Below are positions 41,423-50,870 of a stretch of 51,054 bases of DNA, piece after piece (the stretch's first letter is position 1; every line of letters starts with the position of its first letter). The notes beneath the pieces are model-generated. The model searched no databases. It was given only the letters and a program-made list of their open reading frames with translations, and was not told where the DNA came from. Position numbers and translations under genes: made by a program. This DNA is from Candidatus Melainabacteria bacterium (GTDB lineage Bacteria > Cyanobacteriota > Vampirovibrionia > Obscuribacterales > Obscuribacteraceae): assembly GCA_027451745.1 (NCBI GenBank), contig DAIDIP010000022.1, positions 1-51,054 of the forward strand. The letters run 5' to 3'.

Positions 41423-41443
41423 TTTAGCTGATATGTTTTGGGT

Positions 41444-41827
41444 ATGTTCATAGAAAAGAAAATTGAACAAATTGAAAGTATCCCTCTAAGACTTCTTGCT
41501 GGGCTTGGAGATGCTGTTAGTAGCTTGATTGAAAGAGAGACGGCTATAGCAAAATCTAGTTCGGCCAAGCAATTGCACAAAGAGACAAAGAAACGGGTCA
41601 ATGCCCACGCTCAAGCTCAAGATTTAGACAAACTCACTGAGTTTTTGAACGAAAAAGAACTAGAAATAGTACGACGAGCGTCTAACATGAAAGCTAATAA
41701 TTATCGGAAGACTGGACAGGCTACATCTCGTAAATCGACGGCTTATGAGGCCTTACTTGGCTACCTTTATCTTATGGACATTGATCGTTTACGTGCATTA
41801 CTGAAGCTACTTAAGAGCAAATCTTAA
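41444..41827 (+). CDS. mrnC: Mini-ribonuclease 3
   Basis: A 127-residue RNase III catalytic domain with no dsRNA-binding domain, the Mini-III type that matures 23S rRNA in Bacillus. Catalytic positions are recognisable: Asp23 in GLGDAVSSL, and Glu102 in YEALLGYLYL, with the LHKETKKRVNAHAQA helix between them as in the family. The RRGRNAKS segment of other Mini-III proteins is changed to RRASNMKA. The ATG at 41444 is preferred over an upstream TTG. It is 20 bases after the glycosyltransferase gene and precedes the kinase gene. Confidence 0.82.
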   Translation: MFIEKKIEQIESIPLRLLAGLGDAVSSLIERETAIAKSSSAKQLHKETKKRVNAHAQAQDLDKLTEFLNEKELEIVRRASNMKANNYRKTGQATSRKSTAYEALLGYLYLMDIDRLRALLKLLKSKS

Positions 41828-41889: not shown

Positions 41890-43047
41890 ATGACTACTCC
41901 TATATTTAAGCCAGTGATAAGCTCAGATTTAATTTATCAATCATTGATTGAAAATTTGGCCGACGGTCTACTCATTAGTGGAACGGACGGCATAATTCAG
42001 ATTTGTAGCAAATCATTTGCACAACTTGTTGGTTCTTCATGCGACAAATTAATTGGTCAGCCACTTGAAGAATTGGTTCGATTGGAACATACAGAAGCAG
42101 TTTGCGGTACTGCAGGCGGTGCACAGCCCGTGGAAGTTTTATCAAGCGATAACGGAAAGAAAACTGATCATGAACAGGATCACGGCTTATTTAGCAACGT
42201 AAAGACCTCCCTTGCATTGATCACTACCCGCCCTGGATTACATACACACATGCCAGCAGCACAATTCTCCATAGTCAGTGAAGGCAAAATTATTGCCTAT
42301 ATTACTATTGTTTATATTGTCCAAGCCCATTCTGTTCAGCAAGCTCAAACAGAGTTCGTCAGCACAGTAAGCCATGAATTAAGAACACCGCTTACAAGTA
42401 TTAAAGGATTTGCCGATACTATTTTGCGTGCAGGAGATAAGCTGGAGAAGGGACAACAAAGAAGATATGTAGGTATTATAAAAGACCAAGCTGATAGATT
42501 AACGCGCCTCGTCGAAGATCTTTTAGCTGTCTCAGGACTGGATTCTAAAAAATTGCAATTGACTATAAGAGCTATCGATTTGCGTGAAGCAATCGAGAGA
42601 GTTTTGCGCAACCTGGCAGACAAGGCTGCCAAACATCGCATCGTTACTGATTTACCAACGGGACTGCCTCCTGTATGGGCAGATTCTGACCGTATAGAAC
42701 AAATACTTACTAATCTCATCGATAATGCTGTGAAATATTCAGCTCCCGGAAGCACAGTAATTATTGCTGCACATGAAGTTGATAAAACAATTGAATTTTC
42801 GGTCACCGATCAGGGCGTTGGTATTTCACAAGAGCATTTACCAAAAATATTTACTAAATTTGGGCGACTAGACAATCCACTCATTCGTCAAACTGAAGGA
42901 ACCGGACTTGGCCTTTATATCACTAGATCTTTAGTACTCGCTCTAGGTGGGCAAATCGAAGTAAGTAGCAAACCTGGACAAACTACTTTTACTGTACAGT
43001 TACCAGCTGCCAGCTTGGAAGAACAAGCGGCTCGAGGTAGGGGATAA
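41890..43047 (+). CDS. PAS-domain sensor histidine kinase
   Basis: A 385-residue cytoplasmic kinase without membrane segments. The PAS domain occupies about residues 12-140 (IENLADGLLISGTDGIIQIC and onward). The H-box VSHELRTPLTSIKGF follows with His162, then N-box LTNLIDNAVKYS, VTDQGVGIS, FTKFGRLD and GTGLGLYITRSL. All catalytic boxes look intact. It ends two bases before the REC-GGDEF-REC gene, which suggests a functional pair, although that partner lacks a normal phosphoacceptor. Confidence 0.92.
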   Translation: MTTPIFKPVISSDLIYQSLIENLADGLLISGTDGIIQICSKSFAQLVGSSCDKLIGQPLEELVRLEHTEAVCGTAGGAQPVEVLSSDNGKKTDHEQDHGLFSNVKTSLALITTRPGLHTHMPAAQFSIVSEGKIIAYITIVYIVQAHSVQQAQTEFVSTVSHELRTPLTSIKGFADTILRAGDKLEKGQQRRYVGIIKDQADRLTRLVEDLLAVSGLDSKKLQLTIRAIDLREAIERVLRNLADKAAKHRIVTDLPTGLPPVWADSDRIEQILTNLIDNAVKYSAPGSTVIIAAHEVDKTIEFSVTDQGVGISQEHLPKIFTKFGRLDNPLIRQTEGTGLGLYITRSLVLALGGQIEVSSKPGQTTFTVQLPAASLEEQAARGRG

Positions 43048-43049
43048 GT

Positions 43050-44375
43050 ATGTTGCCCACCCCAGTAATTTTGATTATCCATCATGCCGAAAAAGCACTC
43101 GGCTATGGACCGATGCTGGAAAAAACCGGAGCTAGAGTTCATACTGCCACATCATTAGAACAAGCAAATGAATTGCTATCTTTTTTACATCCGGATTTGA
43201 TTATTCTTGCTACTAGTATGCCAGAAGGTGATGGACGTATTTATGGGCAACAAATTCGGGCAACTCTTGTCCAGCCACGTCCAGTGCTAGTTCTAATGCA
43301 AAATTCTGCCGATATGTCTGAACGTATTAGCCTGTTTCGCTTTGGAGCGGATGACGTTCTTTCAGACGATATAGACAAGAAAGAATTAGCTTTTAGAATT
43401 ATGGCGCACTTGAGAAGACGACAAGAAGAGTTTTCTAATTCTTTAACACAATTACCCGGTCCTAATCTTATTAGACGTATGCTTGAACAAAGTTTGGTTT
43501 CTGATAAACCTTGGGCAGCTCTTTCTGTAGATTTAAACAAAATTCGTATCTATAACGAAATCTATGGTGATCTGGCGGGAGATCAGTTAATTAAGGCTCT
43601 GGGAGCCATTTTAGTGGATATTGCAGACGAGGATGATTTCGTTGGACATCTTGAAGCAGATGATTTCTTATTGATTACTAGGTCTAAAAATCCTGAGAAA
43701 AAGGCAGAACGCATTTGCCAACAATTTGACCATATTAGCAATCGTTTTTATCCTCGCGGCGACATTGAAAGGGGGTATCTGGTTGCTACTGGACGCGGTG
43801 GTATTAGAAAAAGAATTCCACTTATTTCAATTTCTATAGGTATTATTTCTTCTAATAATCGTCGCTTTCAAAGCTACGTGGATGTCCTCACCAGCTCAAG
43901 AGATTATCGTTACATTGCAAAAAAACAATCTGGTTCTAGTTGGGTTAGTGATGGTTCAATACCACAAGAAAAAACCTTGCCTTATAATAAAGAAAATGAA
44001 TCAGAAAGCAAGACTTTTCGTATTTTAGTTATCGAACCTGATGGAGCTATGGCTTGCTTGCTGCAAGAGAGATTATCCCTTGAAGGATATTTTGTGCAAG
44101 TAACTAATTCTGCCAATGAGGCTTGTGAATTAGTTCATGGCGAAACTCCTCCAGATTTAATATTAATGGAATCTACCCTTCCAGATAGACAAATGGACGG
44201 CTGGAAGTTATGTCGCTATCTTAAAGACGATGAGAAGCTGCGTCATATCTGCTTAGTAATGGTAACCTCTCACCCAGATCAGTCGCTTGCATTAGAGGCA
44301 GGGGCAGATCTTTATTTACCAAAACCTTTTGATATGACTATCCTGCTTAATGAAGTTAACTTGCTGCTGCACTAA
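43050..44375 (+). CDS. REC-GGDEF-REC protein with all three domains degenerate
   Basis: A 441-residue signalling protein. Receiver 1 (about 5-120) has HHAE where the acidic pair should be, Ala54 at the phosphoacceptor (LIILATSMP), and DDID in place of the conserved Lys-Pro. The middle domain (about 130-290) has the GGDEF fold (VDLNKIRIYNEIYGDLAGDQL), but the signature is EADDF and no cyclase activity is expected. Receiver 2 (about 322-441) keeps the VTS and LPKPF motifs but has Glu374 in place of Asp (LILMESTLP). It is coupled to the preceding PAS kinase. A phosphorylation-independent or dimer-based role is inference. Its end overlaps the convergent gmhB-like gene by 20 bases. Confidence 0.85.
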   Translation: MLPTPVILIIHHAEKALGYGPMLEKTGARVHTATSLEQANELLSFLHPDLIILATSMPEGDGRIYGQQIRATLVQPRPVLVLMQNSADMSERISLFRFGADDVLSDDIDKKELAFRIMAHLRRRQEEFSNSLTQLPGPNLIRRMLEQSLVSDKPWAALSVDLNKIRIYNEIYGDLAGDQLIKALGAILVDIADEDDFVGHLEADDFLLITRSKNPEKKAERICQQFDHISNRFYPRGDIERGYLVATGRGGIRKRIPLISISIGIISSNNRRFQSYVDVLTSSRDYRYIAKKQSGSSWVSDGSIPQEKTLPYNKENESESKTFRILVIEPDGAMACLLQERLSLEGYFVQVTNSANEACELVHGETPPDLILMESTLPDRQMDGWKLCRYLKDDEKLRHICLVMVTSHPDQSLALEAGADLYLPKPFDMTILLNEVNLLLH

Positions 44376-45079: not shown

Positions 45080-47014
45080 TTACAAATTATCAGGTATAGG
45101 TGAGCCTTCTGGCAATGTAGGTGATGTTTTTTGGAAGCGCTCTGAGCGGCCAGAAGTATAGTAACGCTCATCGACAACAGAAGGTTCAACTTGGAACATA
45201 TTGGTATCGCGTGGTCCTTCGACTCTGCCCAACTCTTCTGGTAGTTTGAGTTGTCCAGGTGTACCGGGCAATATAATTTCCGGTCTTACAGAGATTACAA
45301 GTTCGCTTTCGTTCTTAGAAAATGCTTTGGAACGGTATAAAGCACCTAGTACTGGAACTTCTCCCAAAACCGGGTTCATATTAACTTCCCGACCGACGTT
45401 CGATGAAATTAAACCTGCTATAAACAATTCTTGCCCAGGCTTTAATTCAACGATTGTTTGAGTTTTGCGCGTGGTAAATGAATTGATAGCTGAAGGAGAG
45501 CCGGTGAATACTAATGAGTTAGCAGAACTCAAAACACGCTCTTCTGGGGATATTTCTAAGTTGATCACGCCATTTTCTTGCAAAATAGGAATAATATTGA
45601 GCCTTAGGCCAAAAGGTTCAAATGTGATTGATTGCAGTGACACACCAGCAGTGGCCAATTGTTGCTGAATGGGTACTTCACCACCAGCCAAGAAAGATGC
45701 ACGTTCACCGGATACTGTAACCAAAGTAGGCTCCGAAAGAATTCTAGCTCTATTTTGTTCAATAGCACCTTGAATAACTGGTGAAAGGGACATACTGCCG
45801 TGACCTGTTACATAGGCTGCTGTGCCATTGAACATGTTAAGCAAATTAGCAGCAGCAGTAGTAAATGTTGTACCACCAGGAGCTCCAAACAATGCGGCAG
45901 TAGGCAATAAGGCAGGTGGAGCTTGCGGGAATATTGGCTGACCGATACCAGCTATATTTTGACTAAGCCCAGTTGGGAAAATCACCTGATTGCCATAGCC
46001 AAAACCGGCTGAGTTTAAGCTCGAAAGACCAGTGTTCCCACCATTAACCTGCAAACCAGGAAAAGAGGCGGGGCTTGTAGAACCAATTATTGGATTACTA
46101 GAACCACCGATACCGAAACCAAACGCTGAGGTGGTCATATTTATCCCTAGCTGAATACCTAGCGCCCTTGCTGTAGCCGTATTCATTTCTAGGAAGGTAA
46201 CATGCATAACTATAAGAGGCATTTTGCGCACTCTAATCATGCTTGTCACGCGACCACCATCACTTACTATTAATTGAGCGCGACCAATATTATTTGGCAA
46301 GTTTGGAAAGTAAGTATATTTATCAACTTGTCCAAGTTGAGCAAGCGCACCGGACTGTCCGCCAGCCTGTCCACCGCCGCCACCTTGCGCCATCATTTCA
46401 CCAATTCTTGCTGTGATGAGGCGATTATTAGCTACTTGGATATTGCATCCTCTATCATCCATAAAAACATTCGCTGCTGAAAATGCTCGAATGATTGATT
46501 CTGGATAATCTACATCACCGAGAAGAACAACTCGATCTATACCGCCAACGTTATAAGTTTTTATGATGATACGTGGATCAATTTCACGAAGTGTAGATTG
46601 TAATTGACTAAAATCACGATTTACTCGTAGATCTACAGCTACTGAATTCCCGGCATCGTCCCAAAGCAACATAGTTGCTACGCCTGGAGTTTTCCCAAGA
46701 AGAATGAATTGGTTTTCGGTGATAATTACTGGTTCGGCAATAGAGGGATCACTAACATGTGTTCTTACTATTTTATTCTTGGTTCTAAAAGTTCTGGATT
46801 GAGAAACTTTTAAATCAATAATATTACTCGGTTTAAATTCTTCCATGTCCAGCGAGCCGGAAACGATAGGAGGGATCGGAGAAGCGATCACATCAGCAGT
46901 ATTTGCTTGAGCTAAAAAGTCGCCCCCACTATTGCTGGCATTGGCCGCTAAAACACTTCCTTGTCCCAACAGAAGGCTTATACTTAAGCTCAAGCCCAAA
47001 GTATATCGCGACAT
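45080..47014 (-). CDS. Secretin-family outer-membrane protein, copy B
   Basis: A 644-residue secretin (the longer start at 47065 would give 661). A signal peptide, MSRYTLGLSLSISLLLGQGS, is followed by a BON/pilus-assembly N-terminal domain near residues 65-135 (SQSRTFRTKNKIVRTHVSDP). A Gly/Ala/Pro/Asn-rich, likely extracellular or flexible stretch covers about 290-400. The secretin core then includes SGERASFLAGGEVPI and ETPELEV-like pore strands up to about 590. I choose ATG 47014 for its AAGGGAG ribosome-binding site and the typical signal length. It follows its paralogue after 11 bases if the longer start is used. No secretion or pilus genes flank it. Confidence 0.85.
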   Translation of the reverse strand: MSRYTLGLSLSISLLLGQGSVLAANASNSGGDFLAQANTADVIASPIPPIVSGSLDMEEFKPSNIIDLKVSQSRTFRTKNKIVRTHVSDPSIAEPVIITENQFILLGKTPGVATMLLWDDAGNSVAVDLRVNRDFSQLQSTLREIDPRIIIKTYNVGGIDRVVLLGDVDYPESIIRAFSAANVFMDDRGCNIQVANNRLITARIGEMMAQGGGGGQAGGQSGALAQLGQVDKYTYFPNLPNNIGRAQLIVSDGGRVTSMIRVRKMPLIVMHVTFLEMNTATARALGIQLGINMTTSAFGFGIGGSSNPIIGSTSPASFPGLQVNGGNTGLSSLNSAGFGYGNQVIFPTGLSQNIAGIGQPIFPQAPPALLPTAALFGAPGGTTFTTAAANLLNMFNGTAAYVTGHGSMSLSPVIQGAIEQNRARILSEPTLVTVSGERASFLAGGEVPIQQQLATAGVSLQSITFEPFGLRLNIIPILQENGVINLEISPEERVLSSANSLVFTGSPSAINSFTTRKTQTIVELKPGQELFIAGLISSNVGREVNMNPVLGEVPVLGALYRSKAFSKNESELVISVRPEIILPGTPGQLKLPEELGRVEGPRDTNMFQVEPSVVDERYYTSGRSERFQKTSPTLPEGSPIPDNL

Positions 47015-47076
47015 AGTATTCTCCCTTCTTAATGCACTATATATTTCAGCAATAGTCTTTTTCATTCGATAATTTC

Positions 47077-49266
47077 CTATTCATTCTCAGGGATTGGTGA
47101 ACCTTCAGGCAAAGTAGGCGAGGTCTTTTGATAACGCTCAGACCGGCCACTTGTCCAGAAACGTTCGTCGATAACGGTTGGTTCAACCTGGAACAAGTTG
47201 GTATCACGCGGTGCTTCAACACGGCTGATTTCTTCTGGAAGTTTTAGCTGTCCAGGTGTACCTGGCAAGATAATCTCTGGACGTATTGCCACAACCAATT
47301 CACTTTCGTTTTTGCTGAAAGCTTTAGAACGATAAAGAGCGCCTAGAACTGGAACTTCACCCAAAACAGGGGTTTTGATTATGTCTCGCCCACTATTGCT
47401 TGTGATTAAGCCAGCAATAAACAGTTCTTGCCCAGGTTTCATCTCAACAATGGTTTGAGCTTTTCTGGTTGTAAAACCAGGAATAGCTGTAGCCAATGAA
47501 GACGGCTGGAAAGAAATCACGTTAGATATAAGTCTTTCTTCCGGCGAGACTTCTAAATTGATATTTCCATTTTCCATCAAAACTGGAATAACATTAAGTC
47601 TCAAACCGAATGGTTCAAACACAACTGACTGACCAGTTGTACCCGCTGCGGCAACGGCTTCAATGACTGGGATTTCACCACCAGCCAAGAAGGCAGCCCG
47701 CTCACCAGATATTGTCACCAAAGTTGGCTCAGCCAAAATTCTGGCGCGGTTTCTAGTGATGATACCTTGAATGGTCGGATTTAATGACCAAACTGACGAT
47801 ACACCAGCACCTTTATATATATTCGATAAAGATGTGAAAATATTCTGCAAGTTACCGGTACCGAAATTAGTTCCACCAGGAGCTCCTAAAAGAACTGATG
47901 TGGGCAACAATGCACCAGGGGCTTGGTTAAGTACGGCTTGACCGATACCACTTAAAGGATTACCAGGAAGGATTCCACCAGTCATCACGCTTTGTACAAT
48001 ACTATTAGATACAAAGGACACAGGTCCAACAACTTGTGGACCTGGTTTACCACCAGGAAGAATACTGGTGTTCAAGGCTGGAGTAATACCATTGATAATG
48101 GAAAGAGTTCCACCACCTTGGTTGATATTATTACCACCCACACCAAAAGTGAAGTGGTTACCGGTATATGTCAAACCAAGCTGGACACCCAGTTCTCTAG
48201 CAGCAATTGAATTCATTTCCATAAAAGTACAATGCAAAACAATCATCGGCACTTTTCTTACTTTGATTAAACTCGTCACTCTGCCGCCATCACTAGTAAT
48301 GACTTGAGCTTTACTAATATTGTTAGGCAAGTTTGGGAAAAAAGTATAACGATCAACTTGTGACAATTGAGCTAAGGCACCAGTTTGTCCACCACCCTGT
48401 CCGCCGCCACCTTGTGTGGTTTGTTCACCAATTCTGGCCGTGACAAGCCTGCTGTTGGCTATTTGGATGTTCATACCTCGATCATCCATAAATACATTGG
48501 CAGATCCAAACGCACGTATTACTGACTCGGGATGGTCAACATCGCCTAACAGAATAATACGGTCAGAACCACCCGAGAAAACAGGCTTAACTATGATGCG
48601 TGGATCAACTTCTCTTAGAGCAGCCTGCAATTGAGAAAAATCACGAGTGACTCGTATGTCTATAGTTGCTGAATTGCCAGCATCATCCCACAACACAAGA
48701 GTTGCTCCACCGGAAGCGTGTCCTAAAAGCACCAATTGATTTTCTGTGACCAAAATTGGTTCAGCGATAGAAGGATCACTAATAGATATCCTTACTATCT
48801 TGTTTTTTAGTTTAAAAGTGCGAGATTGAGAAATCTTCAACTCAATTACATTAGAGGTTTTGAGCTCTTCAAGATCAACAGTGCTACTTACGACTGGTGG
48901 GATTACGGTTGCGCCAACATAATCAGGATTACCCTGAGCCAGTAATTGATCTGGAGCCATCTCAGCCAAGAAATGAGGATGCTTCTTCTTTATGCTGCTT
49001 GGACGACTCGCAATAAGAGCATTATCGGTAAGCTCGATAGAAGGATGTATTGTTAATACCGCAGCTGGCGATCCGGTTTTTTCTTCAACATCGGATTCCT
49101 GCGGAGCCAAGAACAAAGAATGTCTTTTTACACTCGAACTATTTGGGACAACATGGGAAACTTTTGCTTGTACATTACCTGAGCGCGCAGCTATAGCTCC
49201 AGGCACAGCAGTTGGCATTAGTATTAAGGATAGGCTTAATGCTAAGCACACTCTGGTTTTCATCAT
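47077..49266 (-). CDS. Secretin-family outer-membrane protein, copy A
   Basis: A 729-residue paralogue of the next secretin. Signal peptide MMKTRVCLALSLSLILMPTA; then about 85 extra residues not seen in copy B; then the same pilus-assembly N-terminal domain (SQSRTFKLKNKIVRISISDP near 150-170), a Gly/Pro-rich stretch (about 375-480) and the secretin core ending near 680. The C-terminal tail FQVEPTVIDERFWTSGRSER is nearly the same as in copy B. The two are a tandem duplication, most likely co-transcribed. ATG 49266 follows AGGACAAAG. Export apparatus partners are not in this window. Confidence 0.87.
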   Translation of the reverse strand: MMKTRVCLALSLSLILMPTAVPGAIAARSGNVQAKVSHVVPNSSSVKRHSLFLAPQESDVEEKTGSPAAVLTIHPSIELTDNALIASRPSSIKKKHPHFLAEMAPDQLLAQGNPDYVGATVIPPVVSSTVDLEELKTSNVIELKISQSRTFKLKNKIVRISISDPSIAEPILVTENQLVLLGHASGGATLVLWDDAGNSATIDIRVTRDFSQLQAALREVDPRIIVKPVFSGGSDRIILLGDVDHPESVIRAFGSANVFMDDRGMNIQIANSRLVTARIGEQTTQGGGGQGGGQTGALAQLSQVDRYTFFPNLPNNISKAQVITSDGGRVTSLIKVRKVPMIVLHCTFMEMNSIAARELGVQLGLTYTGNHFTFGVGGNNINQGGGTLSIINGITPALNTSILPGGKPGPQVVGPVSFVSNSIVQSVMTGGILPGNPLSGIGQAVLNQAPGALLPTSVLLGAPGGTNFGTGNLQNIFTSLSNIYKGAGVSSVWSLNPTIQGIITRNRARILAEPTLVTISGERAAFLAGGEIPVIEAVAAAGTTGQSVVFEPFGLRLNVIPVLMENGNINLEVSPEERLISNVISFQPSSLATAIPGFTTRKAQTIVEMKPGQELFIAGLITSNSGRDIIKTPVLGEVPVLGALYRSKAFSKNESELVVAIRPEIILPGTPGQLKLPEEISRVEAPRDTNLFQVEPTVIDERFWTSGRSERYQKTSPTLPEGSPIPENE

Positions 49267-50051: not shown

Positions 50052-50870
50052 ATGAGTGATTCAGTCCTACCTAGAAGTATCGATTCGCCGATTCATGCTT
50101 CTTCTGCGGACTCAAAAGAACAGGGAGAAAGAAAACAAACCGTGGTTGAGAATAATAACGAACAAGATAAGGTATTAGTAGTTGACGATGAAGCATCCAT
50201 TCGACGCATCTTGGAAACTCGCCTCAAATTGGCGGGCTATAACGTAGTCACTGCTGGAGATGGGCAAGAAGCTTTGGAACAGTTTCATGGCTTTCAGCCA
50301 GATTTAGTCATCCTAGACGTAATGCTGCCAAAAATGGATGGATATGAAGTCTGTCGCGAAATAAGAAAAACTGCCGATACTCCAATAATAATGCTAACGG
50401 CTGTAGCCGATGTATCTAATAGAATTCAGGGTCTAGAGATAGGTGCTGATGATTATGTGGTCAAACCATTTAGCCCTAGTGAACTTGAGGCAAGAATTAA
50501 GGCTGTTTTGCGCCGCACTGTAGAAAGACAACAAGAAACTGGCCAAACTAAGAGTACTAACGTAATAACTATTGGCAACCTTAAGATAGATTTAAACAAG
50601 CGTCAGGTTACTCGCAAAAATGAGCGCATCCGCTTGACAGGCATGGAATTTAGTTTGCTTGAACTATTAGTAACTAATTCTGGTAAACCATATTCACGAG
50701 GCGAAATTTTGCAACAAGTTTGGGCTTATCCACCAGATCATAGAATTGATACCAGGGTCGTTGATGTACATATAAGTAGATTGCGTTCGAAGCTTGAAGA
50801 AGATTCTTCCAATCCTGATTTAATCTTGACCGCTCGTGGCATTGGTTATATGTTCCAGAAAATAAATTAG
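50052..50870 (+). CDS. rpaB: RpaB-like response regulator (OmpR family)
   Basis: A 272-residue regulator. After a 40-residue polar N-terminal extension, the receiver begins VLVVDDEASIRRILETRLKL, a sequence typical of cyanobacterial RpaB. It keeps the phosphoacceptor Asp in VILDVMLPKMDG, the MLTA Thr and the VVKPFSPSELEARI stretch. The winged-helix domain (MEFSLLELLVTNSGKPYSR, VVDVHISRLRSKLEED, GIGYMFQ) is complete. In photosynthetic cyanobacteria RpaB and its kinase NblS/Hik33 control light-stress and cell-envelope genes. Its targets here are unknown. No Shine-Dalgarno precedes ATG 50052, and an intrinsic terminator follows. Confidence 0.88.
   Translation: MSDSVLPRSIDSPIHASSADSKEQGERKQTVVENNNEQDKVLVVDDEASIRRILETRLKLAGYNVVTAGDGQEALEQFHGFQPDLVILDVMLPKMDGYEVCREIRKTADTPIIMLTAVADVSNRIQGLEIGADDYVVKPFSPSELEARIKAVLRRTVERQQETGQTKSTNVITIGNLKIDLNKRQVTRKNERIRLTGMEFSLLELLVTNSGKPYSRGEILQQVWAYPPDHRIDTRVVDVHISRLRSKLEEDSSNPDLILTARGIGYMFQKIN

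Follow-up and report, generated by a model that had tools for sequence, protein, structure and literature searches.

Judged from its sequence, the gene at 43050-44375 of the window (the whole 51,054-nucleotide stretch of Candidatus Melainabacteria bacterium DNA analyzed here) encodes a pseudo-response regulator that is deeply conserved and constantly paired with a kinase. It is well supported that the gene has lost enzymatic function and appears to be maintained for a job other than phosphate acceptance or second-messenger synthesis. Our preferred model, to which we give about an even chance of being right, is that the protein works as a pseudo-response-regulator subunit cooperating with the upstream kinase; its receiver 2 would be held in an active-like state, and its GGDEF domain would bind GTP and not cyclize it. 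The pair occurs in nearly every genome of the class, the non-photosynthetic sister group of the cyanobacteria. The features discussed are the following, with families given by our labels (f1, f2 and so on).

41890-43047, + strand: PAS-HisKA-HATPase_c sensor histidine kinase, 385 aa (Pfam, NCBIfam, synteny)
43050-44375, + strand: predicted REC-GGDEF-REC pseudo-response regulator, 441 aa (ORF list, Pfam, residue script, orthologues)
43062-43424, + strand: receiver 1, residues 5-125, without phospho-Asp (Ala54), acidic pair (His11-His12) or Lys, and with GADD at residues 99-102
43209-43211, + strand: codon of Ala54, the receiver-1 phosphoacceptor position; A, P, S, Y, T or H in f1, f2 and f7, elsewhere mostly S
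43425-43943, + strand: degenerate GGDEF domain, residues 126-298 (Pfam, PleD alignment)
43530-43583, + strand: putative GTP-pocket residues Asp161, Asn169 and Asp178 (D327, N335 and D344 of PleD), present in 34/34 sequences of f1, f2 and f7
43653-43667, + strand: EADDF replacing GGDEF, residues 202-206 (residue script, alignment)
44013-44369, + strand: receiver 2, residues 322-440, with Glu329-Pro330-Asp331, Glu374, Thr406, Tyr422 and Lys425
44169-44171, + strand: codon (GAA) of Glu374, the receiver-2 phosphoacceptor position; Glu in 42/42 sequences of f1, f2, f4 and f7, Asp in 51/51 of eight other families
44322-44324, + strand: codon of Lys425, the invariant active-site Lys of receiver 2

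The regulator starts with the ATG at 43050. Pfam recognizes two Response_reg stretches (8.9e-28 for the whole protein) and a GGDEF domain (2.4e-11), all above the curated cut-offs. A residue script placed Ala54, HHAE (residues 11-14), EADDF (202-206), Glu374 and LPKPF (which holds Lys425), and it confirms the original prediction that receiver 1 has Ala54 and His11-His12 and no Lys, that EADDF stands in place of GGDEF, and that receiver 2 has Glu374. The statement that every signature residue is replaced holds for these losses and goes too far elsewhere: receiver 2 keeps Glu329, Asp331, Thr406, Tyr422 and Lys425, and the GGDEF domain, which has lost both glycines, keeps Asp161, Asn169, Asp178 and Asp204/Asp205. 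The AlphaFold2 model of the protein, built from a two-sequence alignment, is of poor quality (mean pLDDT 54.6, with values under 50 over most of the GGDEF region), so pocket geometry cannot rest on it; in this low-confidence model the receivers show the expected alternating strands and helices, and Glu374 closes a strand.

The upstream gene has the H-box His and the N, G1 and G2 boxes of a HisKA kinase, and its catalytic motifs are intact (H162 in SHELRTPL, N275/N279 in the N box, D307 in the G1 box and GTGLGL as the G2 box). All catalytic residues are kept in 34/34 sequences of f1, f2 and f7. The best NCBIfam model is PnpS, at 236 bits, under its 400-bit cut-off. The kinase had been described as starting two bases away from the regulator; it ends there, with its TAA at 43045-43047, two bases before the regulator ATG. 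That it is intact and adjoining is borne out: an orthologous kinase gene lies directly 5′ of the regulator on the same strand at 93 of 93 loci, the window included. The spacing is mostly -4 to +5 nt in the first 60 loci sampled, where the few large negative values reflect over-long ORF starts; one f5 kinase (L093) is truncated at the edge of its contig. The kinase-regulator pair is by itself the class-wide conserved unit, and CsaB, TagA, a mini-RNase III-like gene and GlcD/GlcF surround it in f1 and f2 only.

Other features of these loci were observed. Between TagA and the kinase, 41438-41827 (+ strand, TTG start) encodes a 129-aa mini-RNase III-like protein with a Ribonuclease_3 domain, present in f1 and f2. 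Two related tandem secretins (Secretin and T2SS-T3SS_pil_N domains) are encoded on the - strand at 45080-47065 and 47077-49266, and this arrangement is conserved close to the pair in most f1 genomes whose contigs reach far enough. The f5 kinases (L084-L093 and L123-L142) are mostly about 237-254 aa, apparently have no PAS domain, and in some cases have a degraded G1 box, so this family may use another input or bind ATP less well.

Within the family, 46 of 50 genomes, the 21 of high quality all among them, have one orthologue of the regulator, at 63-73% identity. Across the class (Melainabacteria/Vampirovibrionia), a match at E<=1e-18 was obtained for 360 of 382 genomes, with a single orthologue each, and the weaker matches in f4 and f8 are kinase-adjacent orthologues wherever inspected. 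Twelve of the 13 families of the class are represented among the regulator-kinase loci; a recognizable regulator orthologue was not found in f6. A phylum-wide profile search of 292 genomes gave 132 matches at E<=1e-45, every one within the class, and found no homologue outside it at this threshold. The Candidatus Melainabacteria record PSRH01000200.1 also holds an orthologue, with about 72% identity.

Receiver 1 is degenerate throughout this range. The active-site Lys is absent in the whole class, the Asp and canonical acidic pairs are absent in essentially all members, and GADD (residues 99-102) is conserved. In the window protein, receiver 1 has neither an active-site Thr/Ser nor a Lys, and the two receivers have Ala54 and Glu374 where a canonical receiver has its Asp phosphoacceptor, and H11-H12 and E329-P330 where it has the acidic pair DD1/DD2. 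Nearly all class members also have a degenerate GGDEF signature. EADDF does not contain the second Gly expected of a diguanylate cyclase, and both Gly are gone in f1, f2 and f7 save one sequence (second Gly in 1/34). Conservation among orthologues therefore applies to part of what had been proposed: EADDF-like signatures prevail in the window's order (with GGDDF in 1/93 sequences, L057) and Glu374 is fixed in four families (42/42), and position 54 varies among A, P, S, Y, T and H. Three independent losses had also been suggested. The pattern is different, as receiver 1 and the GGDEF domain are degenerate class-wide and only D374E separates sub-lineages; receiver 1 resembles the pseudo-receiver ahead of the GGDEF domain in PleD, so the losses are not parallel events in this gene.

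Position 374 is acidic in 93/93 sequences, divided by family into the Glu and Asp groups listed above. The codon sets for D and E are one transversion apart, and the gene tree requires one change at this site. Among 409 columns, 11 are invariant and 12 have a single change, site 374 included; most other D/E-varying columns that are nearly always acidic have two to five changes. Because the regulator has no match outside the class at E<=1e-45, an outgroup-rooted RpoB tree was used to polarize D and E. Rooted on four Cyanobacteriia genomes, it resolves the Glu families (96/96) and the Asp families (97/89) as sister halves of the class. From these sequences, the switch at 374 is read as a single event at the deepest branching of the class. 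We argue that Asp is ancestral from its universality in receivers, with the RpoB tree giving sister clades only. Orthologues with a normal Asp, which the original prediction would have taken as a sign of decay, thus formally exist in receiver 2 of the other half of the class, yet they mark no decay, as Glu and Asp are each fixed on their own side of one split. As a separate observation, a divergent second RpoB-type ORF was seen beside the normal rpoB in 3/3 f1 genomes searched (G000:C37:7995-9194, G023:C6:751039-752235 and G006:C11:380265-381464; frames of 1230-1611 aa, E about 1e-97) and was not seen in the f2, f7 and f4 genomes searched.

The rest of the receiver-2 active site is largely retained. 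The domain has the active-site T406 and K425; Lys425 is invariant (93/93), Thr406 and Tyr422 are present in 34/34 sequences of f1, f2 and f7, and there is little or no variation at Glu329, Asp331, Tyr422 and Lys425. At DD2, all 34 sequences of f1, f2 and f7 have Pro330, and the other families mostly have a non-acidic residue, except f4, where 6/8 sequences have Asp/Glu; because DD2 is mostly non-acidic, receiver-2 phosphorylation may be weak even where the Asp is present. Both Response_reg stretches lack key active-site residues, which makes them pseudo-receivers in the sense of Bourret et al. 2025 (PMC12632262), and receiver 2 of the window protein counts as one on that paper's criteria.

The GGDEF domain appears to have kept a nucleotide pocket. 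In the alignment with PleD, regulator residues D161, N169, D178 and D204/D205 correspond to D327, N335, D344 and E370/E371, and the GTP-contact residues of a diguanylate cyclase (the first three) are thus in place; we take D161 to be a metal contact and N169 and D178 to be guanine contacts, the roles of their PleD counterparts. Asp161, Asn169, Asp178, Asp204, Asp205, Phe206 and Lys291 are invariant (34/34) in f1, f2 and f7, despite a mean GGDEF domain identity to f7 of 0.48. This would be the expected look of a nucleotide-binding, non-cyclizing domain, and the invariance of the guanine- and metal-contact residues in the clade makes GTP binding plausible. The Asp lineage mostly has Lys/Arg in place of Asn169 and varies at Asp161 and Asp204, and with these changes it has lost the GTP pocket. 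The same residues could mean that the protein is a GTP/GDP sensor, with nucleotide at the GGDEF pocket as the main input, receivers that are only a scaffold, and an adjacent kinase that regulates or is regulated, and for the GEDEF domain of CC3396, GTP binding without cyclase activity is documented. We consider this possible, if doubtful, since the pair persists in the Asp half of the class, which has lost this pocket, and GTP sensing is thus not the family-wide function; replacement of both Gly may also hinder triphosphate binding.

Retention of the GTP pocket coincides with Glu374 in one clade, and so counts as one event. It may reflect a swap of input in an ancestral kinase-regulator pair as one half of the class arose, with a fixed Glu taking the place of receiver-2 phosphorylation while the degenerate GGDEF domain kept its GTP pocket; the outcome would be a GTP-gated pseudo-regulator controlling its own kinase, and the sister lineage would have retained the phospho-Asp and given up the pocket. 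This idea is speculative and unlikely to be correct.

Glu is the commonest substitute for the receiver Asp and can be a partial phosphomimetic, an idea that has been disproved in some proteins (PMC12632262), and a phosphomimetic role for Glu374 is not guaranteed. The protein could be a constitutively active effector, locked "on" by Glu374 in receiver 2 and acting on unknown targets with little kinase input. The fixed Glu and the retained Thr406, Tyr422 and Lys425 agree with this, and plant and Ascomycota pseudo-receivers also have Glu for Asp (PMC12632262). We nevertheless regard it as unlikely: the intact kinase, always adjacent and nearly always abutting or overlapping, would be needless for a kinase-independent effector, and no output domain is present beyond the degenerate GGDEF.

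In the preferred model of a subunit cooperating with the kinase, the regulator would accept phosphate neither on receiver 1 nor, in this lineage, on receiver 2, and would make no c-di-GMP. Receiver 1 and the GGDEF fold may form an adaptor or dimerization module like the PleD pseudo-receiver. The GGDEF pocket may hold GTP or GDP with a metal and not cyclize it, which would make it a ligand-sensing domain that may gate the state of the protein; this role is suggested by the invariant D161, N169, D178, D204, D205 and K291 combined with the loss of both Gly. In receiver 2, Glu374 opposite the retained Lys425, Thr406 and Tyr422 may give an active-like conformation. This domain may dock on the kinase or another partner, and so set the kinase/phosphatase balance toward a response regulator encoded elsewhere. 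In the Asp half of the class, where the receiver-2 Asp is kept and the GTP pocket is lost, receiver-2 phosphorylation is probably still the input. It is the strict gene pairing that suggests a kinase-pseudo-regulator complex, and gene adjacency is equally compatible with a kinase that phosphorylates a third protein while the pseudo-regulator acts separately.

The original prediction rightly placed the true phosphoacceptor of the kinase in question. NblS is a cyanobacterial kinase linked to the response regulator RpaB, and an RpaB-type regulator is encoded at 50052-50870 in the window. The adjacent kinase could phosphorylate it, with the pseudo-regulator tuning transfer, and in f1 RpaB (87-95% identical) indeed lies 6-15 kb downstream of the pair. 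A close RpaB orthologue is found across the class, yet outside f1 it was not found close to the pair, and 18/19 class genomes tested have a separate NblS-like kinase (310-384 bits), so the nearby RpaB is probably not the partner of this kinase and we consider the proposal improbable. The upstream kinase scores 155 bits against the NblS model (NF045911, 621 positions, cut-off of 1000 bits), and another gene in the window's genome scores 365.5 bits over most of the model. Elsewhere, at G027:C1:1161646-1164541, an NblS-like kinase gene lies next to the RpaB gene in the same orientation, and the two are a candidate cognate pair in a non-photosynthetic lineage. Homologues of RpaA, RpaB and NblS were already reported in Melainabacteria by Di Rienzi et al. 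(PMC3787301).

Binding of c-di-GMP had been proposed for the regulator, and a receptor using the GGDEF inhibitory site would resemble PopA, which likewise has two receivers and a degenerate GGDEF domain; the window's genome has 19 GGDEF matches and one EAL. The RxxD motif of that site is D193-E-D-D196 in the window protein, with no Arg, and the Arg position is D, S, G, T, A, N or H in f1, f2 and f7. In each of the four f7 genomes tested, three GGDEF matches and no EAL or PilZ match were found, counts that fit a role outside c-di-GMP turnover, at least in f7. A c-di-GMP receptor acting through RxxD was rejected on the loss of the Arg, and we hold such a function to be very improbable. Genome G000 (3.0 Mb assembly) has 19 GGDEF matches, one EAL and no PilZ match.

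The regulator is under purifying selection. Its dN/dS values in five close pairs are 0.014, 0.047, 0.027, 0.098 and 0.043, and those of the kinase in the identical five pairs are 0.035, 0.094, 0.020, 0.147 and 0.069, all of them rough values because dS is about 1 or above in three of the five pairs; comparison with the nearest relative was saturated and was replaced by these closer pairs. The regulator is more constrained than the kinase in 4/5 informative pairs. Conservation for a non-enzymatic role, which the original prediction had favored over decay, thus finds support in the invariant positions, in Glu374 (34/34 in f1, f2 and f7) and in dN/dS of 0.01-0.10. That the gene was once a PleD-like diguanylate cyclase response regulator and is now decaying, as the catalytic residues missing from three domains might suggest, is scarcely credible and was rejected, since its orthologues are full-length, single-copy and syntenic across the class, dN/dS is <=0.1 and lower than that of the kinase in 4/5 pairs, and the near-invariant position 374 is among the slowest of 409 columns.

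A 2025 review called the switching of bacterial pseudo-receivers a mystery (PMC12632262). The regulator is a deeply conserved, near-universal and single-copy example of a pseudo-receiver with a constantly paired kinase, the orthologous D and E proteins across one ancient split are a natural experiment on the effect of the substitution, and the invariant GTP-contact residues point to a concrete candidate ligand. We found no description of the kinase-regulator pair, a candidate core signaling system of Melainabacteria, among the searched papers on Melainabacteria and c-di-GMP or two-component systems.

PleD of Caulobacter (PDB 1w25, 2v0n, 2wb4 and 9g85) is the best PDB match of the regulator. 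Residues 323-437 align with receiver 1 of PleD, and its pseudo-receiver and GGDEF domain are matched in a single stretch by residues 49-206, so that a pseudo-receiver ahead of GGDEF is common to both proteins. The domain order differs (REC-REC-GGDEF in PleD, REC-GGDEF-REC in the regulator), the GG and RxxD motifs of PleD are missing, and the sole well-framed receiver is C-terminal, with Glu for Asp. The NCBIfam PleD model gives 103.5 bits against a cut-off of 474, and the regulator is therefore not a member of the PleD family. PopA is a PleD paralogue with two receivers, a non-cyclizing GGDEF domain and a non-enzymatic role, and it acts via c-di-GMP at the inhibitory site; this site is absent in the regulator, and the domain order of the two proteins differs.

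The GEDEF domain of CC3396/PdeA is cyclase-dead, binds GTP and regulates its neighboring domain (PMC4823724). GTP as an allosteric ligand would be alike in the two proteins, being putative for the regulator, but CC3396 controls an EAL domain in cis and the regulator has no EAL. Osp of Rhodobacter sphaeroides is receiver-like, works without phosphorylation and directly inhibits CckA (PMC9430884); unlike the regulator, it is a single-domain protein that keeps the Asp, has lost the acidic pair and Lys, and is encoded away from its kinase. CmrT of Clostridioides difficile CmrRST is, like the regulator, a pseudo-receiver protein in an operon with a normal kinase, but it belongs to the OmpR family and its operon includes a normal response regulator (PMC12632262). 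The pseudo-receivers of Rim15p and plant PRR proteins show a lineage-wide Asp to Glu change as seen here, with sister lineages of Rim15p having true receivers (PMC12632262), although these proteins are eukaryotic and their domain context is unrelated. Direct action of Osp on CckA, the association of CmrT with CmrRS and GTP control by the CC3396 GEDEF domain are together the precedents for the proposed adaptor model.
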